From assembly GCA_017622925.1 (NCBI GenBank), contig JAGAQC010000035.1:1-49676 (forward strand): a DNA stretch of 49,676 nucleotides, given 5' to 3'. Under the pieces are notes generated by a model. The model had not been told where the DNA came from and made no database searches. It saw nothing but the letters and a program-made list of their open reading frames with translations. Numbering within the stretch: position 1 is the first letter of the stretch; every line of letters starts with the position of its first letter. Shown here in pieces: positions 5,439 through 49,249 of the stretch. The position numbers and the translations under genes are program-made. The stretch is from Ruminococcus sp. GTDB lineage: Bacteria > Bacillota > Clostridia > Oscillospirales > Ruminococcaceae.

Positions 5439-6005
5439 ATGAATATTTGGAAAGTAATAGCAAATGAAGGCTATAATAATGCTTTTTTGATAAATGAGAA
5501 TGGTGAACAGTGTTTTGATATGGTTTCAGATTTCAAGGAAATAATAGAACCACAGTCCACAAGATTACTGAGAATAGAGATGACAGACAAAGGCTTTCCA
5601 GACATAATGAACTACTGGGGGATCAATGGAACCATACTCGTCAATTCAAAAGTGAAAGCGTTGATAGAAAATTACTATGGGAGTCTATCAATTCAGTTCT
5701 TTCCATGTAAATGCAAGCAGTTTAATGAAATAAAACTTTGGCTTTTAAATATTTGCGAATATCATGATGTACTGGATTTGAGTAATAGTATATGCAAAAA
5801 AACACATAATCTACAAGGAATAGAGGTAATTCGATCAGTCAAAAAATATTGCTTTACAGAAGAAGCATTTGATTTGGATTTATTTAAAATATATTTGGAT
5901 AAACGCAAATACACAACTACCTTGTTTGTATCTGACAGGTTTAAGAGAATAATGGAAGAAAACAACATTATCGGATTAGCTCTTGAAAAAGTTTATTCCA
6001 TATAA
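5439..6005 (+). CDS. Imm11/DUF1629-like protein, putative immunity protein
   Basis: A 188-residue soluble protein with noticeably AT-rich, A-ending codons compared with the flanking que genes. The C-terminal block LFVSDRFKRIMEENNIIGLALEKV and a middle ILVNSKVKALIENY ... IQFFP block resemble the repeated 'vs.k.k..ie...l.g.ef.pv' pattern of Imm11 (DUF1629) polymorphic-toxin immunity proteins. No toxin gene lies next to it. It sits inside the queuosine cluster, 60 nt after queD, which suggests horizontal insertion. GAGG six bases upstream supports the ATG at 5439 over 5427. The family assignment is from pattern memory and is moderate. Confidence 0.5.
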   Translation: MNIWKVIANEGYNNAFLINENGEQCFDMVSDFKEIIEPQSTRLLRIEMTDKGFPDIMNYWGINGTILVNSKVKALIENYYGSLSIQFFPCKCKQFNEIKLWLLNICEYHDVLDLSNSICKKTHNLQGIEVIRSVKKYCFTEEAFDLDLFKIYLDKRKYTTTLFVSDRFKRIMEENNIIGLALEKVYSI

Positions 6006-19190: not shown

Positions 19191-19220
19191 AACATTATTC
19201 AGATTAAGCGAACTTATATT

Positions 19221-19406
19221 GGGATACCAAAGGGAACGCCCTCTCTTGCAGGGCGTTCCCTCTTTCAAAACAGTCTTTTGGACTGTTTTGAAATTCACCC
19301 TTTGCGGAGCGCTTAACGCTTTGTGGGACGCTGTCCCACACCCTGCCAGAGGCGCTGCCTCTGGACTCCGCCAAAGGGACACCGTCCCTTTGGAATCCCA
19401 ATGTTA
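19221..19406. repeat. Five-hairpin repeat family R3, copy 2 (inverted)
   Basis: The reverse complement aligns along its length with 12434-12612. The third hairpin differs on both arms (TGTGGGAC/GTCCCACA here, TGCGGGGC/GCCCTGCA there), and the fourth has a changed loop with its stem kept. No gene is supported in 19112-19470. Confidence 0.85.
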
Positions 19407-19427
19407 GCCTCCTTGACACATAGAATA

Positions 19428-23798: not shown

Positions 23799-24106
23799 TC
23801 GCTTTTTTAGACTAATTCAGAATGATTTTCTTGTGGACTTTGCACAAAAATATTTGTTAAAAATTAGTTAGTCTTACCTAACTTTTACAAATTCGGCAAA
23901 TCTCGGAAACTTCCCAAGCTTATTGTAAATTAGCGGTAAACTAAATATGTATAAAAGATTAATTTGATAAATTTGATTCTTATGTTAAATACGGCTGAAA
24001 ACGGCATAAAACAGAAAAATATGGAAATATCGGGACTGATTTTTCTTATAGATAATACAAATATCAAATTTACTGAAAATTCATATATCAAATATTTCAA
24101 AAACCA

Positions 24107-24135
24107 TTGACAGAGAGCGTTTTTTATTGTATATT
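24107..24135 (+). promoter_or_regulatory. Promoter of the structured leader and DUF4250 gene
   Basis: TTGACA 24107-24112, TATATT 24130-24135, 17-bp spacer, about 25 bp before the closing stem of the RNA-like element. Confidence 0.7.
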
Positions 24136-24159
24136 AGTATCAAGCGGTAAATACATAAT

Positions 24160-24320
24160 AGACCTACTCGGGAACTGGGAAGTGCTGTATGGCGCAGGAT
24201 TTTTTGCGCTCGGCAAAGTCAGATTTCCGCAGGAATACTGTATGTATTGCAAGGAAAGCTGACAAAGCCGAACGCTAAAAAGACAAGTCAGATAGTGCTT
24301 TTCAGTTTCCGAGTAGGTCT
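24160..24320 (+). ncRNA. Candidate structured leader RNA, family R1, copy 1
   Basis: An 18-bp closing stem pairs AGACCTACTCGGGAACTG (24160-24177) with 24303-24320, with one G-U. Inside are a small hairpin GCGCA/TGCGC (about 24192-24209) and a long arm, TCGGC-AAA-GTCAG ... CTGAC-AAA-GCCGA (about 24210-24271), with a symmetric AAA/AAA loop and an AATAC/GTATT tip. The same ~160-nt element occurs at 29050-29208 with compensatory changes. I do not recognise a known riboswitch. It lies in the leader of the DUF4250 gene, behind a promoter. Confidence 0.7.
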
Positions 24321-24348
24321 AAAACGTTAAGAGAGTTATTGAGAGCTT

Positions 24349-24384
24349 GGCTGCTGCGAAATATTAGCACATTTTGCAGCAGCC
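24349..24384 (+). promoter_or_regulatory. Hairpin between the R1 element and the DUF4250 start
   Basis: A perfect 9-bp stem GGCTGCTGC/GCAGCAGCC with an 18-nt loop, without a T tract. It could be an expression-platform helix for the preceding element. This is speculative. Confidence 0.45.
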
Positions 24385-24421
24385 GATCTAATTACTGATT
24401 ACAGCAGATGGGAGGGCAGCC

Positions 24422-24598
24422 ATGAATATTCCAAACGATCCTATAATTTTGCTCAGCTACATAAACACAAAGCTAAGGGACGATTATCCAACGCTTGACG
24501 AGCTGTGCGCCGCTCTCTGTATATCGAGATCTGAGCTTGAAAACAAACTTGCGGCGATAGGTTATGTGTACAGCGAAGAAACGAATTCATTTAAATAA
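24422..24598 (+). CDS. DUF4250 family protein (58 aa)
   Basis: A 58-residue protein reading MNIPNDPIILLSYINTKLRD ... LDELCAALCISRSELENKLAAIGYVY. This follows the DUF4250 pattern closely: NIPxDPxILLSxxNTKLRD, then a winged-helix-like LDELC-xxL-xxxxxELxxKLxxIGYxY. Its helix-turn-helix-like fold suggests a small DNA-binding or regulatory protein, but no function is established that I know of. GGGAGG lies about six bases before the ATG. It is behind the R1 leader element. Confidence 0.82.
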   Translation: MNIPNDPIILLSYINTKLRDDYPTLDELCAALCISRSELENKLAAIGYVYSEETNSFK

Positions 24599-24759
24599 GA
24601 GCCTGTTTAATACCTCTCCACGCACGTCTTTTCGGCAAAATTCGCCGATTACTGCGTTGAAAAAGCTCACCATACACAAAGTATGCTTTCGCTTTTTCGC
24701 CTTGTACTCGACAAATTTATGCTCGAAAATCCGTACATGCCGAGATATTAAACAGCCTC
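24599..24759. repeat. MITE-like element with terminal inverted repeats
   Basis: Termini 24599-24616 and 24742-24759 are 18-bp inverted repeats (GAGCCTGTTTAATACCTC against GAGATATTAAACAGCCTC, 16/18). Inside are further short palindromes such as CATACACAAAGTATG. There is no credible ORF. It lies between the DUF4250 gene and the next dockerin gene. Confidence 0.6.
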
Positions 24760-24800
24760 TGAGTGTGATGCACAGCGTGTATCGGAAATGAGAGGGAAAA

Positions 24801-26150
24801 ATGAAAAAATTATTAACGAGAACAGCGGCGGCGTTTTCCGCAGCGATGCTCTCCGTGTGCTGCTTAGGAGGGTTCACGGGTATTGCGGCGGAAACGGAGG
24901 ATAAAAAGGTAACGATAGCCTTTGACTTCGGAGTTGACCTTTCGGAGATCGAGCCGTGGTACGGCACAAACGGCGAGCTTACCGACTTTGCGAGTTTTGA
25001 GTCCTTTACGGCTGAAAAAGGCGATGTTTCAGGAATCCCAATAGGCGCGTTCAGACGGGACGGATATGAGTTCAGCGGTTGGACTCCCGACGGCTTCTAC
25101 GGCTATTACTGCGGAGATACTTACATAATTCCTGCGGACTATGAGGGCGATACCATTACGTTCAAGGCGTTATGGCACGATTTGGCGGACGAAAGGGAGA
25201 CCCATTACACGTACAATGTCGTTATGGACGGCGAACCCATTGAAAGACCGATATGGCTGGAGGACGCCGTTTTGACGCCTAATATGATATATGAACCGAA
25301 CTATGCTTCTATCAAGATAGACGGAGCGTCCTCTTACGGACTGACAGACGGCGAACGTGAATATCATATCGGCACGAAGCTTGTCGTTACCGAGGAGGAC
25401 AGGGAGTTCACGCCAATATGGAAGCGCGAGATAAAGCTTACATATTTTGCAGGCGATGTTGACAGGATAAACGGAAATACTTCGTTTACTTTTACAAAAA
25501 TGGAGGGCGGCAGAGACGAGCTTGCCGCCGCCGACCGTTTTTCGAGGAACGGCTTCAGCCTTGCGGGCTGGGTGTCTGATTTTGACGGAAAAACCTATAA
25601 AACGGGTGAAACTGTCACAATGCCGGGAAAGGACGTTACTTTTACGGCGGTCTGGGAGCCTAAGAATTACGTGGTCGTTTTCAAAACGGGAAACGGCGGT
25701 GCGAGCAAAAAGGTATCGGGAATTACCGATACAGCCATAATTTGTCCCGACCCCGAGCATACTGTAAGCGGCATGAGCTTTGCAGGCTGGAAGGACGACG
25801 AGGGCGTTATATATCCCGTAGGCAGCGAGTACACAATTAAAGGCGCGCTGCCCGGTTCGGGAATTTCGCTTCAAGGTGTGTGGGTAGAGGGCGATGTGCC
25901 GCCTGCGACCTCCGAGCCTGTCAAGGTAAGTCTTTTGGGCGACGCCAATTGCGACGGTCAGGTGACTATTGCCGATTCGACCGCAATTCTGCAAGCTCTC
26001 GGAAATCCCGATAAATACGGTCTTTCAGATCAGGGCATGGCAAACGCCGACTGCTGCGATACGGGGGACGGCGTTCTCCCCAGCGACGCGCTCTCCATTC
26101 AGAAAATAGACGCAGGTGTAATTAAGGCTTTGCCCGAGAAAACAAAATAA
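24801..26150 (+). CDS. Secreted dockerin protein with InlB-type repeats
   Basis: A 449-residue protein. Signal peptide about 1-30. Several Flg_new/InlB B-type repeats follow (FRRDGYEFSGWTPDGFY, FSRNGFSLAGWVSDFDGKTYKTGETVTMPGKDVTFTAVW split over about 60 residues, MSFAGWKDDEGVIYPVGSEY), small beta modules common in cell-surface proteins. The C-terminal dockerin, about 378-445 (GDANCDGQVTIADSTAILQALGNPDKYG), is nearly identical to that of the xylanase, so both should bind the same cohesin. No enzyme domain was found, so a binding or structural role in the cellulosome is more likely. GAGAGGG lies before the ATG. Confidence 0.85.
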   Translation: MKKLLTRTAAAFSAAMLSVCCLGGFTGIAAETEDKKVTIAFDFGVDLSEIEPWYGTNGELTDFASFESFTAEKGDVSGIPIGAFRRDGYEFSGWTPDGFYGYYCGDTYIIPADYEGDTITFKALWHDLADERETHYTYNVVMDGEPIERPIWLEDAVLTPNMIYEPNYASIKIDGASSYGLTDGEREYHIGTKLVVTEEDREFTPIWKREIKLTYFAGDVDRINGNTSFTFTKMEGGRDELAAADRFSRNGFSLAGWVSDFDGKTYKTGETVTMPGKDVTFTAVWEPKNYVVVFKTGNGGASKKVSGITDTAIICPDPEHTVSGMSFAGWKDDEGVIYPVGSEYTIKGALPGSGISLQGVWVEGDVPPATSEPVKVSLLGDANCDGQVTIADSTAILQALGNPDKYGLSDQGMANADCCDTGDGVLPSDALSIQKIDAGVIKALPEKTK

Positions 26151-26190
26151 ACCAAAAATGCGGTCAAAAAAACCGCTCATAAAGAAGTAT

Positions 26191-26245
26191 AGCCCTAAAG
26201 CGATTGACTAAAATTGCTTTAGGGCTTGGCTTTTGTTATTTTTTT
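26191..26245. terminator. Bidirectional terminator
   Basis: A perfect 11-bp stem AGCCCTAAAGC/GCTTTAGGGCT (26191-26201, 26215-26225), then T-rich sequence. It lies between convergent genes. Confidence 0.8.
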
Positions 26246-26257
26246 TACTTACGTAAA

Positions 26258-26782
26258 TTAGAATTTAATGTACTTTACACCTAATAATGTAAGTTCATCT
26301 CTCATTTTCTGAACTTTATCATTTGAAAAGCGTCTGCCAATACAGTTTTCAAGCATAAGGACTTTTACTCCTGTTTTTACTGCACCTTTTGCAGTAGCGC
26401 CGACACAACCGCATTCATCTAAACCGCACAGGACTATCTCTGTATAACCTTGCTTTTTCATATGCTCTCTAAATGCTTTTGATGAATATGCATCAGGCAG
26501 ATTTTTTTCAAAATATAAATCTGATACCACATTCAGCTTACTGTATAGTTCTGCTCCTATCGTACCCTTGATCGAAAAACCAATGAACCATTTATTTGTG
26601 ATAATATTAGGAAACATTTGCGCAATGTAAATAACGTCATACCCATTTTCTTTATAAGAAGATATTGCGTTATTTACGGAATTTACAAGATTATTTGTGT
26701 TATATGAGAACTTTTTTTTACGCTTTTCCCATAGATAGTCATTCTGCATATCAATTACAACTAAAGCCTTTTTATCCGTCAA
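26258..26782 (-). CDS. Cysteine hydrolase, isochorismatase-like family
   Basis: A 174-residue protein of the isochorismatase/nicotinamidase superfamily. The triad is visible: Asp11 (VVIDMQNDYL), Lys93 (FEKNLPDAYSS) and Cys126 in GLDECGCVGATAKGA. Family members hydrolyse amides or enol ethers such as nicotinamide, ureidoacrylate and N-carbamoyl compounds; the substrate is not evident. It starts at TTG 26782, with AGGAGG eight bases upstream and no competing ATG. The gene is AT-richer than its neighbours. It lies 47 bp downstream of the GGDEF gene on the same strand. Confidence 0.85.
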   Translation of the reverse strand: MTDKKALVVIDMQNDYLWEKRKKKFSYNTNNLVNSVNNAISSYKENGYDVIYIAQMFPNIITNKWFIGFSIKGTIGAELYSKLNVVSDLYFEKNLPDAYSSKAFREHMKKQGYTEIVLCGLDECGCVGATAKGAVKTGVKVLMLENCIGRRFSNDKVQKMRDELTLLGVKYIKF

Positions 26783-26829
26783 AATGTTTCCTCCTATTTA
26801 TCAGTACTGTGCAAAATGACCGCCCATTT

Positions 26830-28737
26830 TTATTTTCCCGAACCTGCTCGGGAATTTTTCTTTGCTTTTTTAACGTCGTACATAAGTTCGTCAGCCATTT
26901 TGATTATCCTGTAAAGGGTGTAGTTTTCGTCAACAGTTTCAACAACGCTGCCCAGACTTGCGGAAATTCTGTAGGGCTTATTGATAATGTCGTTGATGCT
27001 GTCAAGCTTGGCGTTGAATTTCTGTTCGAGAACGCCTGCGGAATCGTCGTTGGCGTTTTTATCGAAGATAACGAACTCGTCACCGCCGAACCTTGCGCAT
27101 ATGGCGTCGCTGTTGCAGCATTCCTTGATAACGTTGGCAAGCTTTTTGATAGCGAAGTCGCCCTCGTCGTGACCGTAGTTGTCGTTGATGAATTTAAGAC
27201 CGTCCATATCAATAAAAGTGAGCATGACCTTTTTACGTTCGGCAACGCAGTCTCTGAATATTTCGTCGGCGAACTTAATGAAGCCGTTTCTGTTGTAAAT
27301 ATCGCACAAAGGGTCGATAACATAGATCTTATTCAGTTCTTCCATAGCCTTGTTGATATGAGAAAGCTTGCGGAGATTTTCTATGGAATTGCTTATATCC
27401 ATTGAGAATGTGTGGCAGAGCAGGCTGTTAATGGGGAAATCTCCGTTTGTTATTATATAGTATCCGAGAACCTTGTTGCGGAAGTGGAGCGGCAGGAAGT
27501 AATTGACGTTTCCGCCGCTGTTCTGAGGTACGGGGAACATCTCGCTGCCGTTGAAATATTCAACGCTTTCGACCTTATCCTTGCTCCACACGAAAGGCGC
27601 AGTCATTCTCTCGAAAACGAAATCGCTTGTATTTCCGGCGGTTCTGTTGTAGGAATCCTGCCAGTTGCTCGTAAGGCAGAGTGAAAACTGTTTGCAGTCA
27701 AGCTCCTCGACAAATTCGCGGATAACGCTGAAATGCTCCTCGGAGGATTCAGTCTCGGCAAGACGGGCGGCAAGGATATTCAGCTTGCGGACGTTGCTGT
27801 TGGTAACTTCCATTTTGTTGTATGTGGTTTTGCGGAATTCGCTGAAATTACCGTCTGTCTGAATGCCGCAGCCGCAGCTTTCGGTAAATACGCAGGAAGC
27901 CTCAAGCTCCTCATGAACGGGCTTTTTTCCGTTAAGGAGATCGAGTATAACGTCGCAAGCCATAGCTCCCATCTGAGAGAGCGGACGTTTTACCGAGGTG
28001 AGGGCAGGGCAGTAATTTCTTGCGCTGTAGGTATAGTCAAAGCCCGTAACGATAACGTCAAGGGGAATGCAGAAGCCGTATTTTTCGAGGGTGCTGACAG
28101 CCGTGAGAGCCATAGCGTCGTTGGCGCAGATAAACGCGTCGGGCAGAGCAAGACCCGACTTCATGTATTCTTCGATAGCGTCATGACCGTCGAAGCTGCG
28201 GAATTCGCCGTAATAAATGCGGCTTTCTTCCACGGGCAGGTCGTTTTCAGCCATGACCTCGCGGAAAGCGTTAAGTCGCTCCACGGCTTCGGGATTGGAC
28301 ATAGGACCCGAGATATAGTTTATGGTCTTTGCGCCGTGTTCGGTTATTACGTGGCGAACCATTTCACGCATGGCGATAGTATTATTTATCCTTATGTTGT
28401 AGAATTCGCTGACATTGTCGCAGTCAAAGACGACGGCGGGAATGCCCGAAGCCTTGATACGGCTTGTAATGGATTCTTTCATATCGTTGTCGTTGATAGT
28501 GTTGGTCATAAGGATAGCGCCGTCGAATTTTTCGAGATTGGCAAGGCTGTAGATGCTGTATTCGCCAATGTCAAAAAGTCGGCTGTCTATCATGCCGCCG
28601 AAAGCGGCAAAGTAAGAAACGTTGATGTTATTTCTGCGAGAAAACTCGTTTATACCGACGATAATGTTGCTTTGGTACTCTTCATCAAGACCGGCAACAA
28701 ATACGGCGATATTGATTACTTTTCCTAAATTCATCAT
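26830..28737 (-). CDS. Diguanylate cyclase with LacI-type sugar-sensor domain
   Basis: A 635-residue soluble protein. Residues about 7-290 form a periplasmic-binding-protein-like sensor of the LacI/GalR class (NIAVFVAGLDEEYQSNIIVGINE ... DAFICANDAMALTAV ... VIVTGFDYTYSA ... LTSVKRPLSQMG) but with no HTH, no signal peptide and no membrane segment, so it senses a cytosolic ligand. A GAF-like linker follows, then a GGDEF domain about 475-635 with intact RFGGDEF (551-555) and no RxxD inhibitory site. It should make c-di-GMP in response to a sugar. It is divergent from three solute-binding lipoproteins. AGGTG precedes the ATG. Confidence 0.88.
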   Translation of the reverse strand: MMNLGKVINIAVFVAGLDEEYQSNIIVGINEFSRRNNINVSYFAAFGGMIDSRLFDIGEYSIYSLANLEKFDGAILMTNTINDNDMKESITSRIKASGIPAVVFDCDNVSEFYNIRINNTIAMREMVRHVITEHGAKTINYISGPMSNPEAVERLNAFREVMAENDLPVEESRIYYGEFRSFDGHDAIEEYMKSGLALPDAFICANDAMALTAVSTLEKYGFCIPLDVIVTGFDYTYSARNYCPALTSVKRPLSQMGAMACDVILDLLNGKKPVHEELEASCVFTESCGCGIQTDGNFSEFRKTTYNKMEVTNSNVRKLNILAARLAETESSEEHFSVIREFVEELDCKQFSLCLTSNWQDSYNRTAGNTSDFVFERMTAPFVWSKDKVESVEYFNGSEMFPVPQNSGGNVNYFLPLHFRNKVLGYYIITNGDFPINSLLCHTFSMDISNSIENLRKLSHINKAMEELNKIYVIDPLCDIYNRNGFIKFADEIFRDCVAERKKVMLTFIDMDGLKFINDNYGHDEGDFAIKKLANVIKECCNSDAICARFGGDEFVIFDKNANDDSAGVLEQKFNAKLDSINDIINKPYRISASLGSVVETVDENYTLYRIIKMADELMYDVKKAKKNSRAGSGK

Positions 28738-29049
28738 TTTTCACCTTTCGGCATTGCACGAAATGAAATATACTCGCCGACTTATGTCAAAAACGGCGTG
28801 GATATACGGCTCGGTCAATTGGGCGTATGTGTGGCAATGCAATGTATTTAGCATTTTCATTATAACATATTCTCAAAAAATTTTAAAGTCTTTTCAGGAA
28901 TTTATAAAAAATCGTGACATTGCACATATCGGGAAAAACTTTTTGTGCATTTATACGAAATTTTCTTATTTCAAAAATTTTTTCGTCTTTTTTGCCTTTT
29001 AAAATCACTTGTATATAGAACGCTTTATTTTGCGTTATTGTCAAAATTT

Positions 29050-29208
29050 GACCTCCTCGGGAACTGGGAAGTGCTGTATGGCGCAGGATTTTTTGCGTTC
29101 GTCAAAGTCAGGTTTCCGCAGGAATACTTTGTGTATTGCAAGGAAAGCTGACAAAGGCGAACACAAAATAGACAAGTCAGACGGTGCTTTTCAGTTTCCG
29201 AGGAGGTC
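29050..29208 (+). ncRNA. Candidate structured leader RNA, family R1, copy 2
   Basis: Closing stem GACCTCCTCGGGAACTG (29050-29066) pairs with 29192-29208. Compared with copy 1, CCTA/TAGG becomes CCTC/GAGG (A-U to C-G), and the internal arm TCGGC/GCCGA becomes TCGTC/GGCGA (G-C to U-G). The inner GTCAG/CTGAC and AATAC/GTATT pairs are kept. It ends 20 nt before the ATG of a lipoprotein gene, with the strand end AGGAGG inside the stem. Upstream, 28738-29049 is AT-rich with no gene. Confidence 0.7.
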
Positions 29209-29228
29209 TATCAGACGGAGGGTCACAT

Positions 29229-31547
29229 ATGAAAAAATCAATATCATTCATTTTAGCAGTCGGAATGCTTACAGCCGCTGTTTCATGCAGTTCAACGCCC
29301 AAAAAGGAAACTCCTGCGGCAATTGTTCAGACAGACGAGCTTTCCGAGGCGGCGTACAAGAAGTTCTCGGTCGAAGTTCCCGACGGGGTAAAGCAGATAT
29401 ACATTGTTTCTTCGTACAATAACGGCGAAAACCTGTTTCTGCTCGGTTTGGGGAACTCCGCTGCGTGTCTTTGGATGGCAAAGGGGAATTTTACAGAGAT
29501 TGCGCCCATTGAACTGCCCGATCATGACTTTGGAGCAAATTCTACCGCAAATGTGACCGAGGACGGAAAAATTGCCGAGCTGCTTGTTCACGCCGACTAC
29601 GGAGACCTGCCCGAACCCGATTATGATTCCGAGGACTTTAATGCCGAGCTTTACGATAATTCGGCGGAATACAGCCTAAAAGTATGCTTATATGATACGG
29701 ACGGCGGCAAACTTGAAAATACGGTCTCGGGTTATACGGGGGTCGTGGACAGAGATATGTCAATGGGAGAACTTGTTTCAGACGGCAAAAAAATTCTTGC
29801 GGAGCTTAACGGCAGCTACGAGCTTTTCACGGTCGAGGGCGAATATATCGGCGAGGTCACGGCAGACGACGGGGAAGTTATCACTGCTGTTGGACGCGAT
29901 AAAAACGGAATTGCCGTAATTACCGAAAAGGACGGCAGCATTTTCCTGCGCAGGATAGGCGAAAGTTCCGCAAAGCTAACGGCGGCGGAGTTTTCATGCA
30001 ATTTGGGAGAAACCGTCACGCAGATAAGCAAGGGAACGGGCGGCTATTCCTTGTTTCTCCGCACAAGGAGCAGAATTTACGGAGTGGGCGAAAACGGCGA
30101 AATTTCCGCGCTTTTCAATTGCAGCGCGGCAGAAGTGAACGGCGACGAAGTAAGCGGATTTTGCATGGACGGCGAGGGGAACTTCACGATATGCGAAAAT
30201 TCCTACGTAGACAACAGCGTAAAAATTGCAAAATACACTCAATGCGACCCCTCGGAGCTTGAAAATATCCCTGTTCTTGAAGTCGGCATAAGAGAGGGCG
30301 AGGAACGGTTGGCGGAAGAAACTGTTGAAGCCTACAATTCCATGCAAAGCGACATAGTGGTCAAGCTTGTGGAATATGACGAACCCGAGCCGAATCAGGC
30401 GGCAGAAACTCTTTCAAAGCTTGAAAACGACATTATATCGGGAAATATCCCTGACATGTTTATTATGACAAGCGTAAACGGCAGATTCTGCGGCACAGAG
30501 CTTATGGAAAAAGGAGTTTTCTGCGATCTTTCGGAGTTTATGGCTGATGACGACGAGTTGAGGGAAGATAATATTTTCCCCGAGATATTTAATATTCTGA
30601 CGAGGGAAAACGGCGAAATACCGCTGTTAGCCACAGGTTGGCGGCTGGAACTCGGTAATTACGGAAAGTCGGCTTTTATCGACAAATATCTTGAGGGCAT
30701 TGAAACGTTTGATATTGACGGTTATCTCGATTTTCTCGAAAAACTTCCGAAAGATAAAGGCGTGAAGTCGTATTACGACACGGACACGATATTGAACCGC
30801 TTTACACGTCTTAGCTGGACAACATGGGTCGATGTGGAAAATGCTACGTGCAGCTTTGATTCCGACAGCTTTATTCGTTTTCTGAATTATGTGGCGGCAG
30901 GAACGGGCGATATTGAACAGCAGATGCAGGAAACGCAGGAAATTGACGATACAAAAGACAGACGGCAGTATTTAGACGATACCGCAATGATGCAATTTGG
31001 CGGAATTTCAGGCTTCAGCGGCTATATGACGAATATCAGGGGAAGTTTCGGCGGAGAAAAGCTCACGATCATCGGCTTACCCACGTTGGAGGGCGGACGT
31101 ACTTATGCGGAGCTTGCAGGGCAGACCTTGGCGATCGCCGATAGTTCGGATATGAAAGCTCAGGCATGGGAATTTCTGAAATACTATATGCAGAACAATT
31201 CAACGGAAATGCCTGTATTTCCACTGACAATAAGCGGCTTTGAGGCGGAATACGAGCGTTTGAAGGACGGCGTTGACGATGAAGAACTCGGCAAGGGCTG
31301 GTATTATTGGGACGGTAAGAAGAATATTGATATGGGCAGCATGACGGAAGATGACAAAAATTATATTTTAGAGCTGCTCGGTAAGACATATCCGCCGAAA
31401 AAATATATTGACAATGACGATGATACGCCGTATAACATTTATTACGAGGAGACCGACAGATTTTTTGGCGGAGAATATACTGCCGAAAAATGCGCCGAGG
31501 TCATACAGAACCGTATGGAAACTTACCTTTCCGAACAATTCGGTTGA
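29229..31547 (+). CDS. Extracellular solute-binding lipoprotein with large N-terminal domain
   Basis: A 772-residue lipoprotein; Cys20 follows the lipobox TAAVSC. Residues about 40-360 form a beta-rich domain with repeated YDTDGG/ADDG-type turns, possibly a beta-propeller. Residues about 365-770 match the family 1 (sugar) solute-binding fold: AEETVEAYNSM, NDIISGNIPDMFIM, WEFLKYYM near the end, and the tail TAEKCAEVIQNRMETYLSEQ. It captures an unknown carbohydrate at the cell surface. GGAGGG precedes the ATG. It is first of three related genes; no permease or ATPase gene is nearby. Confidence 0.85.
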   Translation: MKKSISFILAVGMLTAAVSCSSTPKKETPAAIVQTDELSEAAYKKFSVEVPDGVKQIYIVSSYNNGENLFLLGLGNSAACLWMAKGNFTEIAPIELPDHDFGANSTANVTEDGKIAELLVHADYGDLPEPDYDSEDFNAELYDNSAEYSLKVCLYDTDGGKLENTVSGYTGVVDRDMSMGELVSDGKKILAELNGSYELFTVEGEYIGEVTADDGEVITAVGRDKNGIAVITEKDGSIFLRRIGESSAKLTAAEFSCNLGETVTQISKGTGGYSLFLRTRSRIYGVGENGEISALFNCSAAEVNGDEVSGFCMDGEGNFTICENSYVDNSVKIAKYTQCDPSELENIPVLEVGIREGEERLAEETVEAYNSMQSDIVVKLVEYDEPEPNQAAETLSKLENDIISGNIPDMFIMTSVNGRFCGTELMEKGVFCDLSEFMADDDELREDNIFPEIFNILTRENGEIPLLATGWRLELGNYGKSAFIDKYLEGIETFDIDGYLDFLEKLPKDKGVKSYYDTDTILNRFTRLSWTTWVDVENATCSFDSDSFIRFLNYVAAGTGDIEQQMQETQEIDDTKDRRQYLDDTAMMQFGGISGFSGYMTNIRGSFGGEKLTIIGLPTLEGGRTYAELAGQTLAIADSSDMKAQAWEFLKYYMQNNSTEMPVFPLTISGFEAEYERLKDGVDDEELGKGWYYWDGKKNIDMGSMTEDDKNYILELLGKTYPPKKYIDNDDDTPYNIYYEETDRFFGGEYTAEKCAEVIQNRMETYLSEQFG

Positions 31548-49140: not shown

Positions 49141-49249
49141 TTTAAGGAAACGCTGATTAAATATCATTTTGAGCGAAACTACATATAAATAATAACGTAA
49201 ATACGTCATATGTATTTTCTAAAACCGATTAAATCAGTGATTCCTTAAA
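49141..49249. repeat. MITE-like inverted repeat element (~110 bp)
   Basis: Termini TTTAAGGAAACGCTGATT and its near-complement AATCAGTGATTCCTTAAA enclose AT-rich sequence with no ORF. Confidence 0.6.

Follow-up and report, generated by a model that had tools for sequence, protein, structure and literature searches.

The stretch analysed here, called the window, is positions 1 to 49,676 (forward strand) of contig JAGAQC010000035.1 from the Ruminococcus sp. assembly GCA_017622925.1. It carries two copies of a folded element of about 160 nt, here termed R1, one ahead of a DUF4250 gene and the other ahead of a solute-binding lipoprotein gene, both on the strand of the gene. R1 is very probably a miniature inverted-repeat transposable element (MITE), and the window copies two of its insertions. 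The window's own assembly (G000 below) comprises 2.50 Mb in 76 contigs and is 88% complete; G147 is the genome of a close relative. The features first needed are these:

24160..24320, plus strand (forward strand of the rod on plus): putative MITE copy 1, type A ends and R1 core, 161 nt
29049..29209, plus strand: putative MITE copy 2, type A ends and R1 core, 161 nt, first base T instead of A
24157..24159, no strand: left target duplication of copy 1, AAT; the right side (24321-24323) is AAA, and G147 has a single AAT without the element
24160..24179, plus strand: left terminal inverted repeat of copy 1, matching the right repeat at 17/20 positions
24301..24320, minus strand: right terminal inverted repeat of copy 1
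24227..24254, plus strand: apical module CC[GCA]GGAATAC-loop-GTATTGC[AA]GG of copy 1
29116..29143, plus strand: apical module of copy 2
24422..24598, plus strand: DUF4250 gene (PF14056), following copy 1, with a type C element inserted at its stop codon (24596-24598)
29229..31547, plus strand: solute-binding lipoprotein gene (PF01547, by Pfam), downstream of copy 2

That the same folded element occurs twice in the window had been seen in a preliminary description of this DNA, and it does: the two copies agree at 147 of 161 positions. The terminal inverted repeats of copy 2 match at 16/20 positions, and a 29-nt stretch of the element, allowing up to three mismatches, is found at two places in the window and at none in shuffled windows. 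Each copy forms a single rod, with a folding energy of -88.1 kcal/mol (z -12.0) for copy 1 and -90.8 kcal/mol (z -11.9) for copy 2. The strands of copy 1 are not equivalent, the forward RNA reaching -88.1 and the reverse only -66.3 kcal/mol. Two stem changes between the copies had been pointed out: CCTA/TAGG to CCTC/GAGG is a genuine double change from A-T to C-G, and TCGGC/GCCGA to TCGTC/GGCGA is likewise present, but it amounts only to G-C becoming T-G at one pair. The other paired differences are one-sided, some of them pair-breaking, and the GCGCA/TGCGC hairpin that had been proposed lies outside both the minimum-energy and the consensus fold. No riboswitch class had been recognised, and our Rfam check agrees: with Rfam 15 the window gives no match at the gathering score, positions 24100-24450 give nothing convincing at E ≤10, and 18 related loci yield only a T-box (L095:766-978), which does not lie on the L095 element (near 5756).

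The description of R1 as a two-copy element holds for the window only. A DNA search of G000 with copy 1 returned 54 matches, namely 33 full or near-full places (two of them on contigs C46 and C55, and maybe one place), 14 opposite-strand matches and seven fragments. C46 and C55, ~88.5 kb each, have mirrored element positions and look like near duplicates of one region. The opposite-strand matches arise because the element is palindromic. In G000 the R1 core stands under two end types, A (AGACCTNCTCGGRAACT) and B (AGACCTGTTCARTAAC). The type A end pattern with up to two mismatches occurs at 86 forward and 87 reverse places (reversed control: 18 and 27), and the type B pattern with up to one mismatch at 15 and 15 (control: 0 and 0). 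Type A ends also flank another core of 156 nt (seven elements) and deletion forms of 41–81 bp. At L065:4970-5287 an element with this 156-nt core and type A ends is split by a different inverted-repeat element of ~160 bp, apparently with CATATG on both sides. A further end type, C, has 54 forward and 57 reverse occurrences in G000 against 0 and 0 in the control, and bounds one more element in the window:

24598..24760 (24599-24759 without the target duplication), minus strand (forward strand of the rod): third putative MITE, type C ends AGAGCCTGTT.., absent in G147

Exact 3-bp target duplications accompany 20 of 37 type A elements (form ANT; mean of shuffles 9.3), 19 of 32 type C elements (form TNA; mean 10.4) and 5 of 13 type B elements (mean 1.8); the observed number was reached by 0/1000 shuffles for types A and C and by 7/1000 for type B. 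With the boundary moved one base inward, 27 of 37 type A elements have the same two bases on both flanks, where shuffling expects 25.9, a comparison that cannot judge the matter. Empty sites are found in G147, which is identical to the window at 827 of 919 positions around the copy 1 and type C sites. Copy 1 and the type C element at 24598-24760 are each missing there as a 164-bp gap, that is 161 + 3, and the L056 element is missing in the same way, its flanks 92–96% identical and abutting with exactly 156 + 3 bp gone. At the site of copy 2, G147 holds a 78-bp type A element (L301) with AAT on both sides and the sequence of the other core; that different elements occupy this site in the two genomes suggests either that one core replaced the other within common ends or that the elements inserted independently. 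G147 has its own copies elsewhere in the genome: seven were tested, six finding no flank match among part of the G000 loci and one, L299, matching beside the short element L063. The flanks of the window copies are unrelated, as had been reported, with transposition as the cause.

The type C insertions have a further regularity. In 11 of 31 the duplicated TNA is the stop codon of a flanking frame with at least 60 open codons, against 0–2 at six shifted positions; chance may account for part of the shorter frames, and six exceed 100 codons. The window example lies at 24596-24598, and others are at loci L234, L241, L247, L257, L258 and L260. Because TNA is duplicated on insertion, the gene keeps a stop; G147, without the type C element, keeps the stop codon at the DUF4250 site. 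R1 has the properties of a MITE: it measures 161 bp, encodes no transposase, is bounded by terminal inverted repeats and target duplications, and shows dispersed copies and presence/absence polymorphism.

The preliminary description had instead suggested a leader that senses a metabolite or a cellular state. A dispersed cis-regulatory RNA, whether riboswitch or protein-binding leader, would account for the strong fold and its covariation, for the preference of the fold for one strand, and for the position of both window copies, each shortly ahead of a gene with the same orientation, which is as it had been described: copy 1 stops 101 nt short of the DUF4250 start codon (24422), and 19 nt separate the end of copy 2 from the start codon of the lipoprotein gene (29229). 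Gene context across G000 speaks against it. From simple open reading frame calls, made with the element masked by stop codons so that insertions inside genes are undetectable, 23 of the 71 full-length copies lie between divergent genes, 37 between tandem and 10 between convergent ones, with one unresolved. Within the 37 tandem pairs the forward strand of the rod runs with the genes in 19 and against them in 18, by a profile score on which 11 of the 71 elements score low; a first orientation rule, later replaced by this recount, had given 19, 16 and two uncalled. Where a gene starts within 150 nt, 25 copies have the same orientation and 29 the opposite one. The absence of an orientation preference does not fit a leader RNA. 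Nor do the presence/absence polymorphism with its 3-bp duplications, the deletion forms that retain the ends and lose the core, or the lack of an Rfam match; copy 1 itself is precisely absent before DUF4250 in G147, the single relative examined for orthologous conservation. A sensing leader is, in our judgement, very improbable.

As a mechanism, we propose that R1 is a non-autonomous MITE of IS5-family type, with a DDE transposase of the IS5 family, provided in trans, as the enzyme most likely to recognise its type A ends. This enzyme would insert the 161-bp element at AT-rich sites and duplicate 3 bp there, as ANT for type A and as TNA for the sister type C. Duplications of 3 bp of the forms ANT and TNA occur in some IS5 groups, and those of types A and C have these forms. 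A search of 125 genomes of the genus with PF13340 (E ≤0.001; 30 returned loci examined) found the domain in 19. Two insertion sequences (ISs) of the IS5 family, L214 (G097, 886 bp) and L230 (G003, 884 bp), have type C ends AGAGCCTGTTCAGTATCTTT that agree between left and right at 20/20 positions; they share these ends with the type C elements and differ from them in length. The two frames of L214 are assigned by Pfam to PF13340 and DDE_Tnp_1. L219 (G098) is a decayed IS5-family IS of 750 bp with ends CTTAGAACTTGTTCTCATAG, as in the elements L089, L157, L161 and L200. Of the 31 full-length type C elements, 8 repeat the initial 18 bases of the IS end exactly at one or both of their own ends, and the window type C copy agrees with the IS end at 15/18 bases at each end. 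The 110-nt end sequences of L214, L230 and L219 showed no rod.

By extension we infer that type A elements are moved by a relative of the type C transposase. A mobile element with a transposase had been named beforehand as what would speak against a structured RNA family: such elements exist for the sister end type, and none was found with the ends of the window copies themselves. Translation of 8 of 22 listed pairs of ends gave ordinary genes, with no transposase recognised by eye as part of an autonomous element between them. An IS630-type MITE, as in the RUP and Correia families, is ruled out by the lack of a DDE_3 match in G000 and by the 3-bp duplication, and a derivative of REP or IS200-IS605 elements by the target duplications together with the terminal inverted repeats.

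Internal loops recur in the rod that forms the interior of R1, and this rod is conserved across diverging stems and differing ends. That covariation in the element is real, as had been claimed, is borne out by two alignments: A2 has 21 elements (14 of 22 type A, 4 of 10 type B, and three from G018 and G031) and A3 all 31 of 31 type C elements. In A2 97.2% of cells are paired over 60 pairs and in A3 97.8% over 64 pairs; double changes affect 16 pairs in each, a number reached by 0/500 shuffles in either case, although the aligned sequences are related and the counts are therefore not independent events. Sliding the partner by 1–3 columns lowers pairing to 33–50%. Further pair types in A2 are not above shuffles (43 against 41.6; 156/500).

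The mismatches within the rod are strongly asymmetric. We counted isolated mismatches between Watson-Crick pairs, read on the strand of the apical motif, in 79 deduplicated elements; the arm alignment scores all mismatches alike and so has no built-in strand preference. There are 227 G·T and 41 A·C mismatches in these elements, taken from this family alone: 29:11 in type A, 9:0 in type B, 51:6 in type C, 8:3 with the 156-nt core and 130:21 in other genomes. Among 16 elements at string similarity <0.72, G·T prevails in 13 and A·C in one, with two ties. Substitutions in A2 and A3 agree, A>G exceeding T>C by 47 to 5 cells (19:5 when scored once per column) and C>T exceeding G>A by 38 to 6 (19:6); with both A>G and C>T enriched, a C>T bias alone is insufficient. 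We consider it likely that the fold is selected on one strand, as RNA or as single-stranded DNA, its function being inferred. The selected strand would most likely act as RNA in read-through transcripts, where candidate roles of the fold would be to protect or process the transcript or to bind a host or transposition protein.

Two other accounts of the fold have to be weighed. Covariation and loops could be a by-product of DNA mechanics, with hairpin-templated repair keeping the palindromic arms of a MITE complementary without any selection. Whole elements are indeed palindromic, copy 1 being 67–72% identical to the reverse strand of its copies, and ends and core covary alike, as such repair would have it. 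It is, however, expected to be strand-symmetric, and would yield neither the 227:41 excess of G·T over A·C nor the joint excess of A>G and C>T; moreover, the asymmetric internal loops GCA/AA recur and have been kept, not repaired away. We think this account improbable. The second places the selected form in single-stranded DNA during replication, conjugation or transposition, recognised as a structure in the way of attC sites or REP elements. G·T is the best tolerated mismatch in DNA hairpins too, and the random orientation to genes would suit a role independent of transcription, but the terminal inverted repeats and the 3-bp duplication are consistent with a DDE transposase whose substrate is double-stranded DNA. 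Selection as single-stranded DNA is rather unlikely on this balance.

Several observations weigh against a trans-mobilised MITE with a fold selected as RNA. The target duplication is inexact in 17/37 type A, 13/32 type C and 8/13 type B elements, and the flanks of copy 2 are unequal, its site in G147 being occupied by a different type A element. None of the 30 loci examined among the genus genomes yielded an IS with type A ends. G000, incomplete as it is, has no match to PF13340 or DDE_3; a relative of the L214 transposase was found neither there nor in G147, G018 or G031, and the two DDE_Tnp_1 matches in G000 lie next to neither a type A nor a type B end. The missing orientation preference is awkward for selection on read-through RNA. 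The G·T excess, measured in this family alone, is equally strong in the outer 18 columns (51:6) and inside (176:34), so that ends and core are not separated by it; with end zone and interior equally biased, the whole rod seems concerned.

Similar interiors recur outside G000. We scanned 84,980 species genomes with the apical hairpin pattern GCAGGAATAC-n-TATTKCAAGG, which matched at least 118 stretches, most in records labelled Clostridia, Clostridiales, Oscillospiraceae or Ruminococcus. Among the matches listed, a few have other labels (Bacteroides, Roseburia, Alphaproteobacteria, Desulfobacterales, Hyphomonas); some of these off-clade matches are chance-like, and metagenome bins may in some cases be mislabelled. 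L169, labelled Roseburia, has type A ends. Recognisable inverted ends are present in 74 of the 122 matches listed and lacking in 48, several of which are cut by a contig end; of the 74, 62 are 150–200 bp long and 8 are short inner repeats, and the ends are many different sequences. The rod fold is seen in 131 of 145 listed matches with enough flank, from G000 and other genomes together. The matches were found through the apical motif, and its constancy among them is therefore not evidence. Alignment A1 (49 of 54 distinct elements) was of such poor quality that it gave inner helices but no full consensus, and the invariance of its apical columns is produced by the exact-pattern search. The type C elements of G000, found by their ends, have two apical modules, GCAGGCATAC..GTATGGCAAGG and CGAAAGCATAC..GTATGGTGAG, and the middle AA/GCA loop recurs in them. 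It is conceivable, though we hold it only tentatively, that the interior is a functional cassette, folded on one particular strand as structured RNA or as single-stranded DNA, which has dispersed across Clostridia by swapping one set of IS5-type ends for another and whose apical modules can be exchanged. If so, the mobile entity would be a structured RNA and transposition only its vehicle.

A phage or plasmid origin was considered and rejected: blastn gave nothing in 50,697 phage and 72,556 plasmid records. Scans of viral contigs gave a few matches. The type A ends gave two, one of which (L306) is by appearance a chance coding match, and the apical pattern gave nine, L307, L312 and L314 being rod-like and the other six chance-like. 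The three rod-like copies, on contigs of the viral collection, have other end types, and in L307 and L312 an apical A-T pair is replaced by C-G.

Bacterial MITEs are usually defined by their ends, and we know of no sequence relationship of R1 to the Correia (NEMIS) or to the ERIC (IRU) repeats. Membership of R1 in the RUP, Correia or ERIC families was rejected, since its target duplication is not TA and its empty sites measure 161 + 3 and 156 + 3. The closest parallels are nevertheless instructive. RUP of Streptococcus pneumoniae, as presented in excerpts of two papers (PMC3049150, PMC2229807), is a non-autonomous repeat of ~107 bp whose ends resemble those of an IS in the same genome and pair in a tight RNA fold. 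R1 is likewise non-autonomous and tightly folded; RUP is tied to IS630-Spn1 and has TA ends, unlike the 3-bp ANT and TNA duplications of R1 and the IS5-type IS of its sister type, and one core under many different ends is not described for RUP in those excerpts. The Correia or NEMIS elements of Neisseria are described in the sections consulted (PMC2229807, PMC10969869) as repeats of ~107 and 155 bp with terminal inverted repeats, the size classes differing by an internal 50 bp, whose transcripts form long hairpins cleaved by RNase III. They differ from R1 in their TA ends, and these sections do not mention a strand bias of the fold. ERIC or IRU and other stem-loop repeat families appear in the relevant extracts (PMC2229807, PMC2267715) as short intergenic repeats with a strong stem-loop, and they have different hosts, ends and targets from R1.

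A MITE with a folded transcript is thus a described kind of element in prokaryotes, to judge from the portions of these sources at hand (PMC2229807, PMC10969869, PMC3049150, PMC2267715). No description of the R1 family was found in the open-licence literature searched; as far as that literature shows, what is new is this family, the return of a single folded interior beneath a variety of ends, and the bias towards one strand. Similar folded interiors under different ends, together with the mismatch pattern, offer a test of whether MITEs are mere passengers or carriers of a working nucleic acid structure. A caution also follows, in that structured-RNA searches based on covariation only can catch mobile elements of this sort. 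With empty sites between close species, the family should be useful for tracing recent insertions in Clostridia, including those at gene stop codons.

Elsewhere in the window, the 449-aa InlB-repeat protein gene at 24801-26150 has many matches of 74–81% in G147 to its 3′ end (25918-26154), as would be expected of a shared C-terminal domain; we take this domain to be dockerin-like, although Pfam did not report it. Positions 19213-19407 form a 195-bp inverted repeat with CCAAAGGGA..TCCCTTTGG, and a similar long hairpin repeat occurs in L069, L076 and L077. One more element lies near the end of the window:

49141..49249, no strand: probable further MITE, 109 bp, with ends TTTAAGGAAACGCTGATTAAAT / ATTAAATCAGTGATTCCTTAAA that resemble those of the L097 and L152 elements

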